Part shown: piece by piece, positions 14,737 through 26,424 of the stretch | Numbering within the stretch: the first letter of the stretch is position 1 | How the letters are laid out: each line of letters opens with the position of its first letter | Assembly: GCF_010725885.1 (NCBI RefSeq) | Contig: NZ_AP022600.1 | Location: 5,890,001 to 5,954,000 of the forward strand | DNA: 64,000 nucleotides | Source: Mycolicibacterium tokaiense | GTDB taxonomy: Bacteria > Actinomycetota > Actinomycetes > Mycobacteriales > Mycobacteriaceae | Reading direction: 5' to 3' | Translations under genes and position numbers: made by a program | The notes under the pieces: model-generated | Told to the model about the DNA's origin: nothing | The model's input: only the letters and a program-made list of their open reading frames with translations | Database searches by the model: none

Positions 14737-15515
14737 AACCCGTTGGCGCGCTCATCACCGGCGTCCCCGTCGGTGCGCTGGGGCTGCGTCAGGCGTCGTG
14801 GTTGCGAACCCAGCTCGCGGAGCACGGTGTGGTGATCCTGCGTGACCAGAACGCCGACGACGAAGCGCTGCTGGACTTCCTGCGCAGTTTCGGCCGGGTG
14901 GTCTTCACCCAGGGTGAGACCCCCGTGGACGGCCATCCCGACCTGAACATCATCAGCAATGTCGGCCGAACCCGGCCGCCGCGCTCCAGCTTTCATGTCG
15001 ACACCAGTTACGTGCAGGAGCCGCCGGCCTACACGGCACTGCGCGCGGTGCGGATACCGGCCCACGGTGGGCAGACCCTGTTCAGCAACCAGTACCGCGC
15101 GCACGACACCCTTCCCGAGCACATCCGCCGGGACCTTGCACGGCGGTCCATCACCCACGTGGCCACCGGGGTCAGCCTGAGCGACGGCGACGAGGCGCAG
15201 GCCACCCACCCCGCGTTGCGCACCCACCCGGTCAGCGGCCGCACCGCACTGTTCCTGTCGACTCCCCCGCGGTGCCGGTCGGTGTCCGGGTTGACCGACC
15301 GGCAGGCCGGCGAATTGGTGGGTTATCTGTTCGAGCATTCCACCCGTGACGACAACGTGTTGCGGCACAGCTGGTTGCCCGGCGACGTGGTGGTGTGGGA
15401 CAACCGGGTGGTGATGCACCGCGCCGACCACCAGGGGGTGGTCGGCGACCGGGTGATGCACCGCGGCATGGTCACCGACGGTGCGGCACCGCGTCAGCTC
15501 CAGAAGTGGGTGTAG
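14718..15515 (+). CDS. TauD/TfdA-type Fe(II)/2-oxoglutarate dioxygenase, MAA tailoring candidate
   Basis: A 265-residue TauD-family dioxygenase with a complete active site. The HxD iron ligands are H93 and D95 in SFHVDTSY, the distal ligand is H234 in WDNRVVMH, and the 2-oxoglutarate arginines are R245 and R249, spaced exactly as in TauD. The GTG at 14718 has AGGAGG eight bases upstream and overlaps the mysD end by 19 bases, so it belongs to the operon. Cyanobacterial clusters use a different non-haem iron enzyme (MysH) to make palythines. A TauD enzyme here could hydroxylate, demethylate or decarboxylate the MAA. Its stop overlaps the convergent astacin gene by 22 bases. Confidence 0.85.
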   Translation: MHAEPLKPVGALITGVPVGALGLRQASWLRTQLAEHGVVILRDQNADDEALLDFLRSFGRVVFTQGETPVDGHPDLNIISNVGRTRPPRSSFHVDTSYVQEPPAYTALRAVRIPAHGGQTLFSNQYRAHDTLPEHIRRDLARRSITHVATGVSLSDGDEAQATHPALRTHPVSGRTALFLSTPPRCRSVSGLTDRQAGELVGYLFEHSTRDDNVLRHSWLPGDVVVWDNRVVMHRADHQGVVGDRVMHRGMVTDGAAPRQLQKWV

Positions 15516-17302
15516 CCCCGGTTGTCGAAGCCGAGCACGAACAGGTCCAGGTTGCTCGGCCCTCGTGACACCGCGGCGATCTGCTGGGTCTGGTTGTCGA
15601 AGATGTGCCCGCCCGGCAGCGGGAACCAGTCGGCGGCCCAGGCGCCGTTCCAGAAGTGGGTGTAACCGCGATTGTCGAAGCCGATGACGAACAGGTCCAG
15701 ATTGTTCGGGCCCCGCGAGACCACCGAGAGCCGCTGCTTCTTGTTGTCGAAGACGTGGCGTCCGGGCAGCGGGAACCAGTCGTTGTTCCACCGGCCGTTC
15801 CAGAAATGCGTGTACGCCTTGTTGTCGAAGCCGAGCACGAAGAGGTCCAGGTTGCCGGCGCCGCGGGAGACCGCGGCCACGTGCTGGGTCTTGTTGTCGA
15901 AGGTGTGACCCCCGGGCAGTGCGAACCAGTCGCTGTTCCACTGGCCGTTCCAGAAATGGGTGTAGACCTTGTTGTCGAACCCGATGACGAACAGGTCCAG
16001 ATTGTTGGGGCCGCGGGACACCGCGGCGATCTTCTGGGTGGTGTGATCGAAAGTGTGCCGGCCCGGCAGTGGGAACCAGTCCCTGCTCCAGCCGCCCTGC
16101 GCGGTCCAGAACGTGGTGTAGACACGGTTGTCGAACCCGATGACGAACAGGTCCAGGTGGTTCGGTGTGCGCGAGACCGCGGCGATGTGCTGGGTACGGT
16201 TGTTGAAGATGTGTTGTCCCGGCAGCGCGAACCAGTCGGAGTTCCACTGCCCGTTCCAGAAATGGGTGTAGACCTTGTTGTCGAACCCGATCACGAACAG
16301 GTCCAGATTGTTCGGGCCCCGCGACACCGCGGCGATCCTCTGGGTGGCGTGGTCGAAGATGTGCCGGCCCGGCAGCGCGAACCAGTCACCGTTCCAGCGG
16401 CCGTTCCAGAAGTGGGTGTAGGCCTTGTTGTCGAAGCCCAGGACGAACAGGTCGAGGTTGGTGCGTCCGCGGGAGACGGCGGAGATCTTCTGCTTCTTGT
16501 TGTCGAAGATGTGCCCGCCGGGCAGGGCGAACCAGTCCGGCGCCCAGCCGCCGTACATGGCCTGGATGGCCAGCCGGTCCCCGACCGACAGTCCGTTCCG
16601 CTGACCCATCACCACCCCCGGCGGCAACGGCACCTTGGGGACGATGGTGGGTTGACCGTTGGTACTGAAAGCCGTTGCGGGGTAATGCATGATGGATCCG
16701 AAGTCGTACCCGCCTGTGTCGTCACCGTCGCTGATGTGTTGCTGGAAGTTGTGCTGATCCCCCGAGGCGATGTTGGCGAAGTTGACGGTGATCAGCGCGT
16801 TGCGGTCCTCCCGGCTCTGCTCGTGCCACAGCCCGATGGCATGCCCCATCTCGTGGATCACCGTCCCGGTGGGTGCGCCCGCGGCGATGCGGATGTCCTG
16901 ACGCCCGCCCTGGCGGCCCACGCGGGAACTGCTGCCGGTGTCAGGGATGAAGCGGACGTAATCGGACTGTCCGTTGCGCGGCACAAAACGCACCGGGGTG
17001 AGCGCCCCGTAGTGCGCCACCGCGTCGGTGACCCGTTGCGGATTGGGCAGATTGGGGTCGACCTCGAACGGGACCACCGCGCCCGGCCATCGGTGGCCGG
17101 CCCCGGTGACGATGACGCCCTCCTGCCCCACCGTCTCCCCCAGCACGATGTCGCCCTCGAACAGCGCCAGGCCGTCGATGTCGCTGTAGGTCACCTCGGT
17201 GCGGACCCCGCCCGGGGTCTCGACGAAGCCGGTGCCGGTGGTGCCTCCGGACCGGAATTCGCCGCTGTCGTGTTCGGTGGTGGTGTTCTCGATGGTGGTC
17301 AT
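15494..17302 (-). CDS. Astacin-family (M12A) metalloprotease with seven C-terminal propeller-like repeats
   Basis: A 602-residue protein. Residues ~70-250 are an astacin protease with the zinc motif HEMGHAIGLWH at 150-160, continuing EQSREDR, and the Met-turn SIMHYP at 203-208. Residues ~256-602 are seven repeats of ~49 residues, each beginning DWFALPG or DWFPLPG and containing NLDLFVIGFDN and YTHFWN, probably seven blades of a lectin-like beta-propeller. No signal peptide is visible on the ATG at 17302, which is odd for an astacin; secretion may be non-classical or the enzyme may act inside the cell. The N-terminal ~50 residues could be a propeptide. Confidence 0.85.
   Translation of the reverse strand: MTTIENTTTEHDSGEFRSGGTTGTGFVETPGGVRTEVTYSDIDGLALFEGDIVLGETVGQEGVIVTGAGHRWPGAVVPFEVDPNLPNPQRVTDAVAHYGALTPVRFVPRNGQSDYVRFIPDTGSSSRVGRQGGRQDIRIAAGAPTGTVIHEMGHAIGLWHEQSREDRNALITVNFANIASGDQHNFQQHISDGDDTGGYDFGSIMHYPATAFSTNGQPTIVPKVPLPPGVVMGQRNGLSVGDRLAIQAMYGGWAPDWFALPGGHIFDNKKQKISAVSRGRTNLDLFVLGFDNKAYTHFWNGRWNGDWFALPGRHIFDHATQRIAAVSRGPNNLDLFVIGFDNKVYTHFWNGQWNSDWFALPGQHIFNNRTQHIAAVSRTPNHLDLFVIGFDNRVYTTFWTAQGGWSRDWFPLPGRHTFDHTTQKIAAVSRGPNNLDLFVIGFDNKVYTHFWNGQWNSDWFALPGGHTFDNKTQHVAAVSRGAGNLDLFVLGFDNKAYTHFWNGRWNNDWFPLPGRHVFDNKKQRLSVVSRGPNNLDLFVIGFDNRGYTHFWNGAWAADWFPLPGGHIFDNQTQQIAAVSRGPSNLDLFVLGFDNRGYTHFWS
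15497..16537 (-). repeat. Seven tandem ~150-base coding repeats of the propeller domain
   Basis: Seven in-frame units of about 49-51 codons, highly similar in protein and DNA. The third unit has a small insertion (TAQGGW). The similarity suggests expansion by recombination; unit number could vary between strains. Confidence 0.8.
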
Positions 17303-17824: not shown

Positions 17825-18907
17825 ATGGGGCAGATGACGACCAGGCAGTCACCGACCGCACGCGCTGCAGTCACGCCTCGCAGCCCCGGCAAGCTCGCCG
17901 ATGTCACCGGCCCCGGCCTGACCGACCGCTGGGGCGCCGCGGCCACCGACCTCGGCGCCTCCATCGAGGCGCCCGACGGCAACCTGGTGTCGGTCTTCGG
18001 GGACACGTTCTCCGGGGACCGGGTGGGCGTCGGCGACTGGCGTTCTCCGGTGGTACTGATCGGCACCGGTGACGCCCGTCGCCCGGTGCGCTATCACCAG
18101 GCCGGCGGACCCGATGCCGGGTACGCCCGTCAGTTGTGGCACTACATCCACGATGACACCGCACCGCGGTGGACCAAAGGCGGTATCAGCACGGTGATCC
18201 CGTCGGATCTGCTCCGGGTCGGCGACACGCTCTATCTGCACGCAATCGTCAACCGCGGCTTCGGAAACGCGGTCTGGACGGAGATCTGGCGCTCGGGCGA
18301 CAGCGGCGTGACGTGGCATCACCTGGGTGAGCGTGCCAAGTTCCCCGCCGCCCTGCACGGTGGCCACGCCCAACTGTGGTCCTGGGACTTCGACCCCGAT
18401 GATGGCTGGGTCTATGTGGTGTCCACCGGCTTTCAACGCAATAAGGGCATCATCTTGCGCCGGGTCCGCCCCGAGCATCTGGGCGAGCGCACTCGCTACT
18501 CGGGGTGGGGGTTCCGCCACGGCGTCTGGGGATGGGGCAACGAGCCGACACCCATCACCCCCGGCGGGGAGACCTGGGGTGAACTGACATTACGCCGGCT
18601 GGCAGCCGGAACCTGGGTGCTGGGCGGCTTCCTGTCGTCGAAATATGCACTGGGCTACCGGGTGATCAGCTCGCCGGTGGCCAACATGTTCGCCACCGAG
18701 GTCCAGATGCCGGTGCTGGGATGTGGTTGGGACGACGAAGACCACACCCGCAACCGCGTCGCCCAGCTCTACGGCGGCTACCTGCTACCGAATTCGCGCG
18801 TCGGCGTACCCGGCGGGGTCGGGCTGATGGTCTCGCAGTGGCACACCCGGGCGCACTGGCCTTACCGCGTCATGCATTTCGGCGTGACACTGCGCGACAC
18901 CCGGTAG
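17825..18907 (+). CDS. DUF4185 protein, GH183-type arabinanase family candidate
   Basis: A 360-residue DUF4185 protein predicted to be a five-bladed beta-propeller. Typical stretches are VSVFGDTFSG near residue 57, IYLHAIVN-like YLHAIVNRGFG, DSGVTWHHLG, VYVVSTGFQRNKGIILRRV, GYLLPNSRV and MVSQWHTRAHWPYRVMHFG. Mycobacterial DUF4185 proteins (the Rv3707c group) have been shown to be endo-D-arabinanases of family GH183 that cut cell-wall arabinan. Whether this copy is active cannot be decided here. The ATG at 17825 and one nine bases later are both possible. No signal peptide is visible. Confidence 0.78.
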   Translation: MGQMTTRQSPTARAAVTPRSPGKLADVTGPGLTDRWGAAATDLGASIEAPDGNLVSVFGDTFSGDRVGVGDWRSPVVLIGTGDARRPVRYHQAGGPDAGYARQLWHYIHDDTAPRWTKGGISTVIPSDLLRVGDTLYLHAIVNRGFGNAVWTEIWRSGDSGVTWHHLGERAKFPAALHGGHAQLWSWDFDPDDGWVYVVSTGFQRNKGIILRRVRPEHLGERTRYSGWGFRHGVWGWGNEPTPITPGGETWGELTLRRLAAGTWVLGGFLSSKYALGYRVISSPVANMFATEVQMPVLGCGWDDEDHTRNRVAQLYGGYLLPNSRVGVPGGVGLMVSQWHTRAHWPYRVMHFGVTLRDTR

Positions 18908-18908
18908 G

Positions 18909-19763
18909 TCACTCTTTGATGTAAGGCACCAGCAGTGTCGACCAGGCGTAACTCATCCGGTCGTACTCGTCCTCGCACTGGCCGGCCCGTTCCTGCGGCA
19001 GCAGTTCGTTGTCCACCAGGTCGGCGTTCATCTCGGGATCGGCGCCGTAGGCCCAGCACAGCAGGTTGAACATCCGGGTCTGGTCCAGCGAGTGTTCGTC
19101 GGCGAAGGCCGCCTCGTCCAACTCGCCGTAGTCGGAGAAGGCGGCGAAGAAGCGGGCGTTGTCACGCAGCACGTCCACCGACTCGGGGTCCAGCTGGTCG
19201 TCGTCGCCGGGCACCAGCAGCATGAAGGCCGAAAGCTGGTCTGCCACATCTTCTTCGCGTCCTGTGGTGGGCAGGTCGTAGATGTCGATCACCATGTGGC
19301 CCATCTCGTGGAAGAAGGTGGCATAGGTGGCATTGACCGCCGAATTCAGCGCGTCCTCCGGGGTGTCACCCGCGTCCAGGAACATGCTCTCGGCGAAGTC
19401 GACGTACTCGTAACACATGGTCATGGTCTGCTCGGACGGGCTCCACCAGGCGTTGGGCTCGTCGCACTGGGCGCCCACCAGCGGAATGTCGAAGGGCAGC
19501 TTCAGCAGATCGGTGGCGCCCTCGGCCATGTCCTCGAGCATCTTGCCGTCCTCGAAGATCTGCTTGCCGCGGATGGCCTCCGGGGTGGTGGCGTCCTGGT
19601 ATTCGGGAATCATGTCGCCGGCGTCGGGCACCGACTCGGCGTCCGCCGCCTCGACCGCCGTCGTCTCCGGCTCCGCCGACGGCGCGGGCGCCTCTTCGGA
19701 GCTGCCGCAGCCGGCGATCACCATCGTCGCCGCAAACAACGGCAGCCAGAAAGAACGCACCAC
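18909..19763 (-). CDS. DUF4344-type lipoprotein metallopeptidase
   Basis: A 284-residue lipoprotein: a hydrophobic N-terminus and lipobox VIAGC with the lipidated Cys at residue 19, followed by a disordered Ala/Glu/Pro linker to ~50. The body matches DUF4344 metallopeptidases, with a zinc HExxH in YATFFHEMGHMVIDIYDLP and a downstream acidic EEDVADQLSAFMLL that may supply the third ligand. It is anchored outside the membrane and is presumably a protease of unknown target. A tandem GTG start at 19763/19760 follows GAAGG. Its stop lies one base from the end of the convergent DUF4185 gene. Confidence 0.8.
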   Translation of the reverse strand: MVRSFWLPLFAATMVIAGCGSSEEAPAPSAEPETTAVEAADAESVPDAGDMIPEYQDATTPEAIRGKQIFEDGKMLEDMAEGATDLLKLPFDIPLVGAQCDEPNAWWSPSEQTMTMCYEYVDFAESMFLDAGDTPEDALNSAVNATYATFFHEMGHMVIDIYDLPTTGREEDVADQLSAFMLLVPGDDDQLDPESVDVLRDNARFFAAFSDYGELDEAAFADEHSLDQTRMFNLLCWAYGADPEMNADLVDNELLPQERAGQCEDEYDRMSYAWSTLLVPYIKE

Positions 19764-21881: not shown

Positions 21882-22556
21882 TTGGTCACTGGAGGCGCGC
21901 AGCGACGGGTCACAGTTGCGGTCATCGACGACCAAGACGTGGTGCACGCTGGTGTTGAGGCGTGGTGTGCCGCCGCGGACCCGCCCATCGATCTGGTTGG
22001 CAACTACCTGCATCCGAAAGAGTTCTTGACGGCCTTTCCCGCCGTCCCACACGAGGTGGACGTCGTCTTGTTGGATCTGCAAATCGAGGGCAGCCGGCCG
22101 GACTTCGACATACTGCGCACGCTCAGCCAGGCAGGCCAACGGGTGGTCGTCTACTCGCATCTGGCGGCCGATGAGATCATCCTCAGCAGCTTGGATCTCG
22201 GGGCCGTGACCTACCTGGTCAAATCGGAAGGACGCTTACACCTGATCGAGGCCCTGCATTCGGCGGCATCCGGCACGCCGTACATCGGCCCCAGGATGGC
22301 CAAAGCGCTGGCCCATGACCGGAACTCGGGCCGGATCAAGCTGTCCGAGCGCGAGATCGAGGTTCTGCGGGCGTGGTTTCAGACCGAGAGCAAGGAACTG
22401 GTGGGCAAGAGACTTTATATCGCGCCCACCACCGTGCGCACCCACCTGCAACGGGCCCGCGCCAAGTACGCCGCGGTAGGCCGTCCTGCGCCCACCAAAT
22501 CGGCCCTGCTGGCGCGGGCGGTGGAAGACGGGATCCTGAGCCTCAACGAGCTCTGA
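21882..22556 (+). CDS. Orphan NarL/LuxR-type response regulator
   Basis: A 224-residue response regulator. The receiver domain has the acidic pair D16-D17, phosphoacceptor D65 (VVLLDLQ), S92 and K114 (YLVKSEG). The C-terminal LuxR-type HTH covers about 155-220 (LSEREIEVLRAWFQ...IAPTTVRTHLQRARAKY). The start is TTG at 21882, supported by GGGGGAGG seven bases upstream. No histidine kinase is adjacent. It is transcribed toward the repeat-peptide operon 250 bases downstream and is the best candidate for its regulator, although no shared site could be shown. The receiver residues look functional. Confidence 0.82.
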   Translation: MVTGGAQRRVTVAVIDDQDVVHAGVEAWCAAADPPIDLVGNYLHPKEFLTAFPAVPHEVDVVLLDLQIEGSRPDFDILRTLSQAGQRVVVYSHLAADEIILSSLDLGAVTYLVKSEGRLHLIEALHSAASGTPYIGPRMAKALAHDRNSGRIKLSEREIEVLRAWFQTESKELVGKRLYIAPTTVRTHLQRARAKYAAVGRPAPTKSALLARAVEDGILSLNEL

Positions 22557-22805
22557 TCCTGTCGTACGAACCACCCAATTCCCGAGCTCGACTTCACCGC
22601 TGCGCCGACGTCGCCCAGAATCGTCGGCGGCTTCCGGGTATCGCCGGCCCGTCCCGAGACGCTCCGGGTAGGCCTGGGCCGGCTTCCGCAGGTAAGCCAA
22701 TCCTGGCGTTTCGACCGCCCGCGGGCGGGGCAATCCCCGAAACGCGCGCAGCCCGCGCACGCTCCGTGCAGGCTGGAGCGGACAGCACCAGTGAAAGAGG
22801 CCCCC

Positions 22806-23057
22806 ATGGCGATCAACGACGATGACATCAGCACCTCCGCGGCAGGCGGCGGCGAAGGCCCGGCCGACGGCGGCAGCAACCCCGGTGGCCACGACGGTGG
22901 CGCGGACGGCACCGCAGGCGGCGAAGGCCCGGCCGACGGCGGCAGCAACCCCGAGGGTCACGACGGCGGGGCCGACGGCACCGCAGGCGGCGAAGGCCCG
23001 GCCGACGGCGGCAGCAACCCCGACGGCCACGACGGCGGCGCCGACGGCACGGCCTAG
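22806..23057 (+). CDS. Gly/Asp-rich three-repeat peptide, candidate multi-core RiPP precursor
   Basis: An 83-residue protein starting at the ATG at 22806, with AAAGAGG five bases upstream; a GTG at 22791 is less well placed. Residues 1-14 (MAINDDDISTSAAG) form a short leader-like segment. Residues 15-37, 38-60 and 61-83 are three copies of a 23-residue unit, GGEGPADGGSNP-x-GHDGGADGTA, differing only at position 13 (Gly, Glu, Asp). There is no Cys, Lys, Arg or aromatic residue in the repeats and no signal peptide. The stop is nine bases before a JmjC-cupin hydroxylase gene. The most economical reading is a substrate protein whose repeats are oxidatively modified. It could also be a Ca-binding or low-complexity surface protein. 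Confidence 0.7.
   Translation: MAINDDDISTSAAGGGEGPADGGSNPGGHDGGADGTAGGEGPADGGSNPEGHDGGADGTAGGEGPADGGSNPDGHDGGADGTA
22848..23054 (+). repeat. Three tandem 69-base units in the precursor gene
   Basis: Three exact-length units at 22848-22916, 22917-22985 and 22986-23054. Nucleotide differences are few and concentrated at the codon for unit position 13 and at a few synonymous third positions. The last unit runs directly into the stop codon. Confidence 0.9.
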
Positions 23058-23066
23058 AGTTCGATA

Positions 23067-24284
23067 GTGCTCAGCCGCTGCATCAGCGTCGACCAGTCCG
23101 TCTTCGCCGCGGAGTACTGGGGACGCAAGCCGCTGCTGAGCCCAGCCGGTGCGCTACCCCGCGATTTCGGTGATCTGCTCTCCCCCGACATGGTGGACGA
23201 GCTGATCGCCGAACGCGGGGTACGCGCGCCGTTCATCCGGCTGGCCAAAGAAGGTCGGCTGCTGGCCAAGGACTCCTACCTGGGGCCGGCCGGTTTCGGC
23301 GCGGAGGTCACCGATCAGGTCGATTCCGCCAAGGTGCTCGAGCAGCTCGCCTCGGGTGCCACGGTGGTCTTGCAGGGTCTGCACCGGTTGTGGCCGCCTC
23401 TGATCGACTTCACCCGCGACGCAGTCGACGACATCGGCCATCCGGTCCAGGTCAACGCCTACATCACCCCGCCGGGCAACCGCGGGTTCGACTTTCACTA
23501 CGACGTGCACGATGTCTTCGTCCTGCAGGTCTCGGGAACCAAGCGGTGGATGGTCCACGAACCGGTGCATCCGCATCCGCTGCCGTCGCAGCCGTGGACC
23601 GATCACCGCGAGGCCATCGCCGAGCGGGTCCGGGATACACCGGCGATCGACGCCGAACTGTCCGACGGCGACGCACTGTATGTTCCGCGCGGCTGGGTAC
23701 ACGCCGCGCAAGCCCTGGACACCACCTCCATTCACCTGACCGTTGGTGTCGCGGCCACGACACCCCTGGATGTGGCCCGGGCTGTGCTGGAGGAACTCAG
23801 CGCGATCGAGCAGCTGCGCGCGCCACTGCCGCTGGGCATGAACCCGATCGATCATGACGACGTGGCCGCCACCGCCGCCAAGGTGATCTCGCAGCTGAGC
23901 ACCCACTTGCGTGACAACGCCGAGACGCTCAGCGCGCTGGCGACCGAACGTCTTGTCTCTCAGCATGTTTCACGCACCCGCCCAGATGCCGTGCGTCCGC
24001 TGGCTGCACTTCGCGCCGCTGTAGACCCCACCGCGGGACCGGTGCGGTGGCGCCGCGGCCTGCACGCCACCCTGACGCAGGACAGCGACAACCGGGTGGC
24101 GGTGCACCTGCCCACCAAGACCATCAGATTCCCCGCGTTATGCCTTGCCGCGCTGACCCATCTGGCCGCCGGCCACGACAGCGACCCTGCGGCCCTGCCC
24201 GGTCTGGACGCCGCTGACGGCGCCGTGGTGGTCCGACGGTTGTTGCGGGAGGGCGTCCTGGCGCCCTCGTCGGCCGCGTCGTGA
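23067..24284 (+). CDS. JmjC-type cupin 2-oxoglutarate oxygenase (ROXA/YcfD/NO66-like)
   Basis: A 405-residue JmjC protein of the ribosomal-oxygenase type, which hydroxylates protein side chains (Arg in YcfD, His in NO66/MINA53). Iron ligands are H144 and D146 (FDFHYDVHDVF) and H212 (VPRGWVHAAQA). K159 in SGTKRW fits the 2-oxoglutarate-binding lysine. After the cupin core a helical section and a winged-helix-like C-terminus follow, as in YcfD. The start is GTG at 23067, nine bases after the repeat-peptide stop and without a strong Shine-Dalgarno, so it may depend on coupling. It overlaps the next gene by four bases. Likely substrate: the adjacent repeat peptide (inference). Confidence 0.85.
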   Translation: MLSRCISVDQSVFAAEYWGRKPLLSPAGALPRDFGDLLSPDMVDELIAERGVRAPFIRLAKEGRLLAKDSYLGPAGFGAEVTDQVDSAKVLEQLASGATVVLQGLHRLWPPLIDFTRDAVDDIGHPVQVNAYITPPGNRGFDFHYDVHDVFVLQVSGTKRWMVHEPVHPHPLPSQPWTDHREAIAERVRDTPAIDAELSDGDALYVPRGWVHAAQALDTTSIHLTVGVAATTPLDVARAVLEELSAIEQLRAPLPLGMNPIDHDDVAATAAKVISQLSTHLRDNAETLSALATERLVSQHVSRTRPDAVRPLAALRAAVDPTAGPVRWRRGLHATLTQDSDNRVAVHLPTKTIRFPALCLAALTHLAAGHDSDPAALPGLDAADGAVVVRRLLREGVLAPSSAAS

Positions 24285-25177
24285 CAACCCCGAGGCGGCC
24301 GCCGTGCAGCGACCAGTCGCTGGCGCGCGAAGAGCCGATGTACGGCACCGCGTCGGCGGGCTCGGCCTGGCTGCTGCTGGAGGTCGAAGGCGGCTGGGGA
24401 CCATCGGCGTTCCTGCAGTCGCCCACCAGTATCGACCCGGTCCTCGGGCGGGCGATCGTGCGCCGCGCCGAGGCCGCCGGAATGCGCATCGCCGCGATCC
24501 GCCGGCATGGTCGCCGCTCCGGGGCGCCGCGCTGGCGGTGGTTCGTGGCCAGGGCCGACGTCGGTCGCTCGCAGCTGTTCCACGGTGAGGTCGACACCGC
24601 CACCGAGTACCTCGACATCGACCTGGACGGACACGACGGCACCCGGGCCACCGGACCGCTGGTGGCCGTCTGCGCCCACGGCCGGCACGACCAGTGCTGC
24701 GCGGTGCGCGGCCGGGTCGCCGCCGGCGCCATCGCTGCCGAGTATCCCGAGCTGGTCTGGGAGTGCTCACATCTGGGCGGCGACCGGTTTGCTGCCACGA
24801 TGCTGATCCTGCCGGAGGGGTTGTGTTACGGCCGGGTGGACGGCACCGACGCCGCTGAACTGGTTCGGCTGTATCTCGACGGGCGCCTCGATGACCGGTT
24901 TCTGCGGGGCCGCACCTCGGTCCCGCACGCCGTGCAGGCCGCACAGCATTTCGCGCGGCAGGCGTACGGCGATGACCGGATCGAGGCTCTGCCCGCCGTC
25001 GCCATGGAGGGCGGCACGGGGCAGATCCGGGTGGTCCTGGCACGCGAGCGCGGAAACCTGGAGGTGGTGCTCGACGAAGTGGTCTCCGAGCCGTTGTTCT
25101 CCCAGTGCTCGGCAACGGTGGCCGGACCGGTCCGCTGCTTCGGCTTGCACTCCATCGCTGCACATCCGCCCGGCTGA
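24281..25177 (+). CDS. Sucrase/ferredoxin-like (Apd1-type) thioredoxin-fold Fe-S protein
   Basis: A 298-residue protein of the sucrase/ferredoxin-like family, whose yeast member Apd1 carries a [2Fe-2S] cluster. The family hallmark CAHGRHDQCC starts at C131, and ECSHLGGDRFAATMLILPEG starts at E161, giving Cys/His candidates C131, H133, C139, C140, C162 and H164. The N-terminal half is a divergent thioredoxin-like domain. The GTG overlaps the JmjC stop by four bases, so the two proteins are co-translated. In this context it may supply electrons or iron to the oxygenase, or do a second redox step on the peptide. Both ideas are inference. Confidence 0.8.
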   Translation: MTTPRRPPCSDQSLAREEPMYGTASAGSAWLLLEVEGGWGPSAFLQSPTSIDPVLGRAIVRRAEAAGMRIAAIRRHGRRSGAPRWRWFVARADVGRSQLFHGEVDTATEYLDIDLDGHDGTRATGPLVAVCAHGRHDQCCAVRGRVAAGAIAAEYPELVWECSHLGGDRFAATMLILPEGLCYGRVDGTDAAELVRLYLDGRLDDRFLRGRTSVPHAVQAAQHFARQAYGDDRIEALPAVAMEGGTGQIRVVLARERGNLEVVLDEVVSEPLFSQCSATVAGPVRCFGLHSIAAHPPG

Positions 25178-25266
25178 CCCCCGCCCCTACTGCCGCCCAA
25201 CCAACTGGTCGGCTAGCCTGTTGAACATCGGTCCAAGATCTCCGACACCGAGCAGGGAGGCCGCTC

Positions 25267-26424
<1,158 letters not shown>

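Follow-up and report, generated by a model that had tools for sequence, protein, structure and literature searches.

The subject of this analysis is a cassette of three tightly packed genes at positions 22806-25177 of a 64,000-nucleotide (nt) stretch of Mycolicibacterium tokaiense DNA (contig NZ_AP022600.1, positions 5,890,001 to 5,954,000), hereafter the window. It encodes a repeat peptide, a JmjC oxygenase and a Suc_Fer-like iron–sulphur (Fe-S) protein, all on the + strand; coordinates are positions in the whole window.

22806..23057, + strand: repeat peptide gene, 83 amino acids (ATG at 22806, stop at 23055-23057)
22848..23053, + strand: three repeat units within the peptide gene, starting at 22848, 22917 and 22986, with a spacing of 69 nt
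23067..24284, + strand: JmjC oxygenase (PF08007), 405 amino acids (GTG at 23067, stop at 24282-24284), NO66-like over its full length
24281..25177, + strand: Suc_Fer-like protein (PF06999), 298 amino acids (start GTG at 24281)

The peptide stop codon lies 9 nt before the start of the oxygenase gene, which in turn overlaps the Suc_Fer-like gene by 4 nt. Both larger proteins score above the Pfam family cut-offs (PF08007, E 2.9e-26; PF06999, E 4.7e-16), and the entire 6.3-Mb single-contig genome holds one gene of each family. The coordinates, spacing and domains of the trio are thus as given in the original prediction, which was made from the DNA letters and their open reading frames (ORFs). A sigma-70 promoter scan of 22540-25300 found no site.

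The peptide comprises a short acidic leader, MAINDDDISTSAA, followed by three 23-residue repeats of the form GGEGPADGGSNPxGHDGGADGTA, encoded by copies of 68 nt each, of which the second is 91% and the third 93% identical to the first. A DNA pattern for DGGADG occurs three times in the window, always inside the peptide gene, against 0.02 expected, and no second site with repeated DGGADG was found elsewhere in the genome. Membership in a known peptide family was rejected, as the window peptide matches nothing in Pfam or NCBIfam at E≤1 and five other peptides of the family match nothing in NCBIfam. A homologous peptide from Leifsonia poae (P0132) carries the name ‘BatC protein’ in public records. 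No signal-peptide-like stretch was seen by eye, with no predictor run.

Repeat number varies, as the original prediction had proposed to check: 28 of the 58 mycobacterial loci have two units and 30 have three (strict unit pattern, with a few genomes counted twice), and repeat arrays elsewhere are longer. Units within one mycobacterial genome are more similar to each other (0.90) than are units of the same index across genomes (0.84), which fits repeats that expand, contract and homogenise. Codon differences between mycobacterial peptide genes of the same length are mostly synonymous (5193, against 1797 nonsynonymous, in 210 pairs that are not independent), pointing to selection on the peptide at the protein level. 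This excess bears on the idea that the small ORF is a translational attenuator of the oxygenase gene, with no functional product. The little distance between the two genes would suit such a role, but the codon pattern, the conservation of a leader and an Asp-rich core as protein across Actinomycetota, and lengths that range from 55 to 226 amino acids (median 82 in 127 automatically extracted peptides) make it very improbable.

Conservation of the neighbourhood was assessed at loci picked as best matches, not at random, in genomes whose genus and family names (Micromonosporaceae among them) were assigned from named relatives. Among 148 genomes of the genus, including that of the window, 77 have a JmjC match; 52 of these reach E≤2.3e-107, and the other 25 lie between 6e-21 and 1e-33. 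At all 52 close loci a Suc_Fer gene lies downstream, in 39 with a 4-nt overlap (script-chosen starts), and at 50 an intact repeat peptide lies upstream; the peptides of loci L023 and L035 are frame-disrupted, and the oxygenase ORF is split in L062. Neither a credible peptide nor Suc_Fer was found at any of 18 loci from 17 of the 25 weak-match genomes, two hits of the peptide rule among these distant loci (L073, L076) being long unrelated ORFs without repeats. Loci L063-L080 represent a distant JmjC paralogue (approximately 30-40% identical) of other mycobacteria, with no peptide or Suc_Fer nearby.

In a wider set of 131 distinct related JmjC sequences, an intact peptide gene lies upstream in 127, Suc_Fer is present within the fetched stretch in 117, and in 115 it is on the same strand within 150 nt. 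The count of 127 starts from 126 loci accepted by rule, drops the doubtful L160 and adds L010 and L162 by eye; it includes L060, where a true peptide is present although the rule chose the wrong ORF. The sequence of locus L104 begins only 90 nt ahead of the oxygenase gene. The absence of Suc_Fer from L175 is weak evidence because only 434 nt of downstream sequence are available. In the single genome that holds L160 and L189, the upstream ORF is acidic without DGG repeats, and a Suc_Fer-like gene is encoded elsewhere. A deeper subgroup (8 of 8 loci) and other classes (11 of 12 loci: L190-L198, L200, L201) have Suc_Fer and a core that differs but remains rich in Asp; in almost every case their leader is of the usual kind. 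Locus L199 has a divergent oxygenase, no Suc_Fer nearby and long peptide repeats of the type ADGTDQGVxGGTYGPRD, with Tyr and Arg, unlike the others read. At eight class-level loci whose JmjC match is weak, both peptide and Suc_Fer are lacking.

Across Actinomycetota the peptide gene is thus conserved together with one NO66-like JmjC group, immediately upstream of the oxygenase gene, and the neighbourhood conservation on which the original prediction had staked itself held. At E≤1e-40 the oxygenase profile matches, in the order, 196 of 348 genomes from 40 of 79 genera and, in the class, 84 of 394 genomes from 47 of 137 genera; at E≤1e-50 it matches 29 of 396 genomes in the phylum. The three samples share members, and the weakest hits may come from paralogues. 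Because the profile is present in 196 of the 348 order genomes and the peptide at 127 of the 131 related loci, the system appears to be very widespread. A quick tree of 115 rows shows strong clustering of the labels, and the peptide–oxygenase pairing may have had a single origin. Against this, the peptide-bearing rows form two groups, one of 81 rows (one without a credible peptide and one of unknown status) and one of 8, whose union is not one demonstrated clade, as several of the joins are left open or fall on long branches.

The active site of the oxygenase is complete. As originally predicted, the iron ligands H144, D146 and H212 and the 2-oxoglutarate (2OG) lysine K159 are in place, and all four are invariant in alignments of 14 and of 36 sequences. 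The solved structures nearest by sequence and fold are NO66 and MINA53, followed by YcfD, at approximately 20% identity. NO66 aligns over residues 1-403 of the model, covering the JmjC core and a C-terminal winged-helix region. The model therefore has the traits of a ribosomal oxygenase (ROX), namely a JmjC core with HxD...H and the 2OG lysine, a dimerisation region and, at approximately residues 326-400, a winged-helix-like domain with strands and helices. The genomic context points to the repeat peptide, not a ribosomal protein, as the substrate.

Which residue might be modified was considered across 146 peptide cores, a set that leaves out L186-L189 and L199; the wrong ORF of L060 and the internal start used for L151 make the statistics of both this and the 127-peptide set a little less exact. 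The leader motif is matched by 121 of the 146 under a strict pattern, and the 25 misses comprise several near variants, some peptides without a clear motif and one wrong ORF. Cores vary, and the more divergent members retain an acidic leader and an Asp-rich core with almost all else changed. Asp, Gly and Ala are present in every core, whereas Ser is missing from 5, Pro from 14, Thr from 24, His from 30, Glu from 34 and Asn from 67; some cores consist almost solely of Gly, Ala and Asp. Asp recurs most commonly at intervals of four residues (714 of the 1353 spacings tabulated for 127 peptides). The Asp of xDGGADG is retained in 796 of 804 cases, preceded by His in 458 of the 796, and the His position is also occupied by Q, R, N, S, T or K. 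In the unit pattern, applied to 244 peptides of which some have out-of-frame or fused ends, fixed letters are conserved by construction, and only the variable columns and two open patterns were used.

The original prediction had named His, Asp or Asn as the hydroxylated residue. Neither His nor Asn is a good candidate for a family-wide site, since 30 cores lack the former and 67 the latter, whereas Asp is the sole reactive residue found in all. For a single modification shared by the whole family, Asp would be by far the best site, and its β-hydroxylation, for which FIH offers a precedent in this fold, is the chemistry that we infer. Other 2OG chemistry on Asp or its neighbours, such as desaturation, crosslinking, or α-hydroxylation of Gly followed by backbone cleavage, seems quite unlikely. 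It would find Gly in all 146 cores, but some distant cores are Gly-poor (minimum fraction 0.016), and ROX enzymes of known activity are hydroxylases. Macrocyclisation by a 2OG enzyme in ribosomally synthesized and post-translationally modified peptides (RiPPs) speaks in its favour, as the title of ref. 45 in PMC12710340 indicates.

In the model of the Suc_Fer-like protein, residues 124-213 form a thioredoxin-like [2Fe-2S] ferredoxin domain and residues 214-298 a cystatin-like C-terminal domain, with C131, C139/C140, C162, H164 and D168 as candidate cluster ligands. Yeast Apd1 binds its cluster through an HxxxH motif, with two Cys and two His ligands. Here, the corresponding motif is HLGGD in all 14 aligned sequences, with Cys139, Cys140 and Cys162 all conserved. 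The ‘Apd1-type’ label of the original prediction is therefore supported in the ferredoxin domain of the model and fails at the HxxxH motif; with Asp168 in place of the second His, and an extra C-terminal domain, the protein is not plainly Apd1-type. Foldseek returned no match for it, which we do not count as absence of relatives.

Taken together, these data lead us to favour, at somewhat better than even confidence, a stand-alone peptide-modification cassette in which the oxygenase β-hydroxylates the repeat Asp residues to give a cytosolic poly-(β-hydroxy-Asp) product. The oxygenase would bind the acidic leader (typically xDDD[IM]xT), probably via its C-terminal winged-helix domain, and would use Fe(II), O2 and 2OG to hydroxylate the β-carbon of regularly spaced Asp residues; the product would remain in the cytosol. 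Leader binding by the winged helix is plausible by analogy, because folds resembling the RiPP recognition element (RRE) and fused to PF08007 have been reported in the portion of PMC12710340 drawn on here. More tentatively, the modified peptide might bind hard metal ions, iron above all, and the [2Fe-2S] protein, where present, might act as a redox partner, either by reducing bound Fe(III) or by maintaining the iron of the oxygenase in the reduced state. A fuller version, in which poly-β-hydroxyaspartate peptides made by NO66-like oxygenases serve as a phylum-wide intracellular iron buffer discharged by a [2Fe-2S] reductase, we regard as doubtful.

Several observations weigh against the proposed Asp-hydroxylating cassette. 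Confidence in the JmjC model is moderate (predicted local distance difference test, pLDDT, 81; predicted template-modelling score, pTM, 0.60). The nearest solved relatives, NO66 and MINA, are His hydroxylases, and His is retained in 376 of 413 mycobacterial-type units. It is thus conceivable that the oxygenase hydroxylates His within GHDGG, in line with the action of NO66 and MINA on ribosomal proteins, and that Asp serves for recognition. In the mycobacterial peptide taken by itself, the site may be His; for the family this is unlikely, given the cores that lack His and the variety of residues that replace it. Four species of one family, f15 (L122, L123, L133, L134), keep the peptide and the oxygenase with no Suc_Fer profile match genome-wide, so that Suc_Fer is dispensable. 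The Fe-S partnership originally predicted thus stands as a gene conserved beside the oxygenase in most loci, and not as an obligatory partner. (In the L133 peptide, ADRGVERGADAGADVG is repeated many times in a row.) A search of 55 upstream regions gave no iron-box-like site; the best match to an IdeR-like consensus has 6 mismatches in 19 and the median 9; iron-box regulation was rejected, and an iron role is without regulatory support.

The flanks were surveyed over 2-3 kb on each side of 59 loci, considering the largest gene clusters only. Beyond the trio and shadow frames, no family occurs in more than 8 loci among the clusters listed, and no protease or transporter is conserved there, whereas the biphenomycin cluster, in the part of PMC12707348 used here, has radical S-adenosylmethionine, multinuclear non-haem iron oxidase (MNIO), HExxH, transporter and TldD genes. 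The system shares with RiPPs a ribosomal precursor with a conserved leader and variable core beside a modification enzyme, and the earlier ‘RiPP-like’ label holds to that extent; genes for leader removal or export, which may lie unlinked elsewhere in the genome, are not among the conserved families listed for these flanks. Because no conserved protease or exporter was found there, strict RiPP status is not established: the name ‘RiPP-like modification cassette’ is warranted, whereas ‘RiPP natural product’ would be premature. The want of a leader-cleaving protease among the clusters listed would also suit an acidic small protein that stays unmodified and serves as a metal buffer, chaperone or complex subunit, with the oxygenase acting elsewhere, for example on a ribosomal protein, and JGI labels relatives ‘ribosomal protein L16 Arg81 hydroxylase’. 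The tight peptide–oxygenase pairing and an Asp-rich core that outlasts sequence change render this distinctly improbable.

Among known systems, the enzyme is closest to the ROX proteins NO66, MINA53 and YcfD and differs from them in its pairing with an Asp-rich repeat peptide gene. FIH and AspH resemble it in the proposed chemistry, β-hydroxylation of Asp in repeated elements. Bufferins, RiPP metallophores considered here by title, may share a role as metal-binding ribosomal peptides; they are Cys-based and MNIO-dependent, unlike the present family, in which Cys occurs in only 1 of 127 extracted peptides. BipG, in the available part of PMC12707348, is the JmjC ornithine hydroxylase of biphenomycin biosynthesis, whose target residue derives from Arg; it likewise acts on a ribosomal peptide, so that the general kind of system is already known. 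According to the part of a 2025 RRE survey drawn on here (PMC12710340), fish and algae have PF08007 domains with RRE-like folds fused to them, and the closest bacterial homologues (approximately 30% identical) sit in RiPP-like contexts; in that part the survey foreshadows the present system without describing it. The main texts of decRiPPter (PMC7794033) and RRE-Finder (PMC7470986) have no mention of cupin, JmjC or sucrase. No description of the peptide family, its NO66-like pairing or its breadth was found in the open-access literature searched, within which the earlier statement that no such system is described holds, and all three look undescribed.

The cassette would then be a very widespread, apparently unnamed oxygenase-modified peptide system, and ROX-type JmjC enzymes, known for ribosome hydroxylation, would gain a second dedicated role. 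Were the product to bind iron, it would connect metal homeostasis with oxygen and 2OG, both in environmental mycobacteria and in many further actinobacteria; an iron-buffer peptide would be a ribosomal counterpart of hydroxyaspartate siderophores.

Other roles for the locus were tried and rejected: defence, with no PADLOC match at E≤0.01, and a mobile element, with no phage match and 132 matching plasmid records, none over more than 80% of the query and all below 60% identity. A LuxR-like gene directly upstream of the peptide was also rejected as cluster regulator, being in no fetched locus outside its own genome. It and other nearby genes are as follows.

21882-22556, + strand: LuxR-type response regulator; its receiver domain is weak and scores below the Pfam cut-off
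15494-17302, - strand: 602-amino-acid protein with an Astacin (M12A) peptidase domain and, after it, several repeats of approximately 40 residues (WFALPGxHIFD...FDNKVYTHFWNG)
17825-18907, + strand: DUF4185 protein
18909-19763, - strand: DUF4344 putative metallopeptidase, whose gene ends tail to tail with the DUF4185 gene
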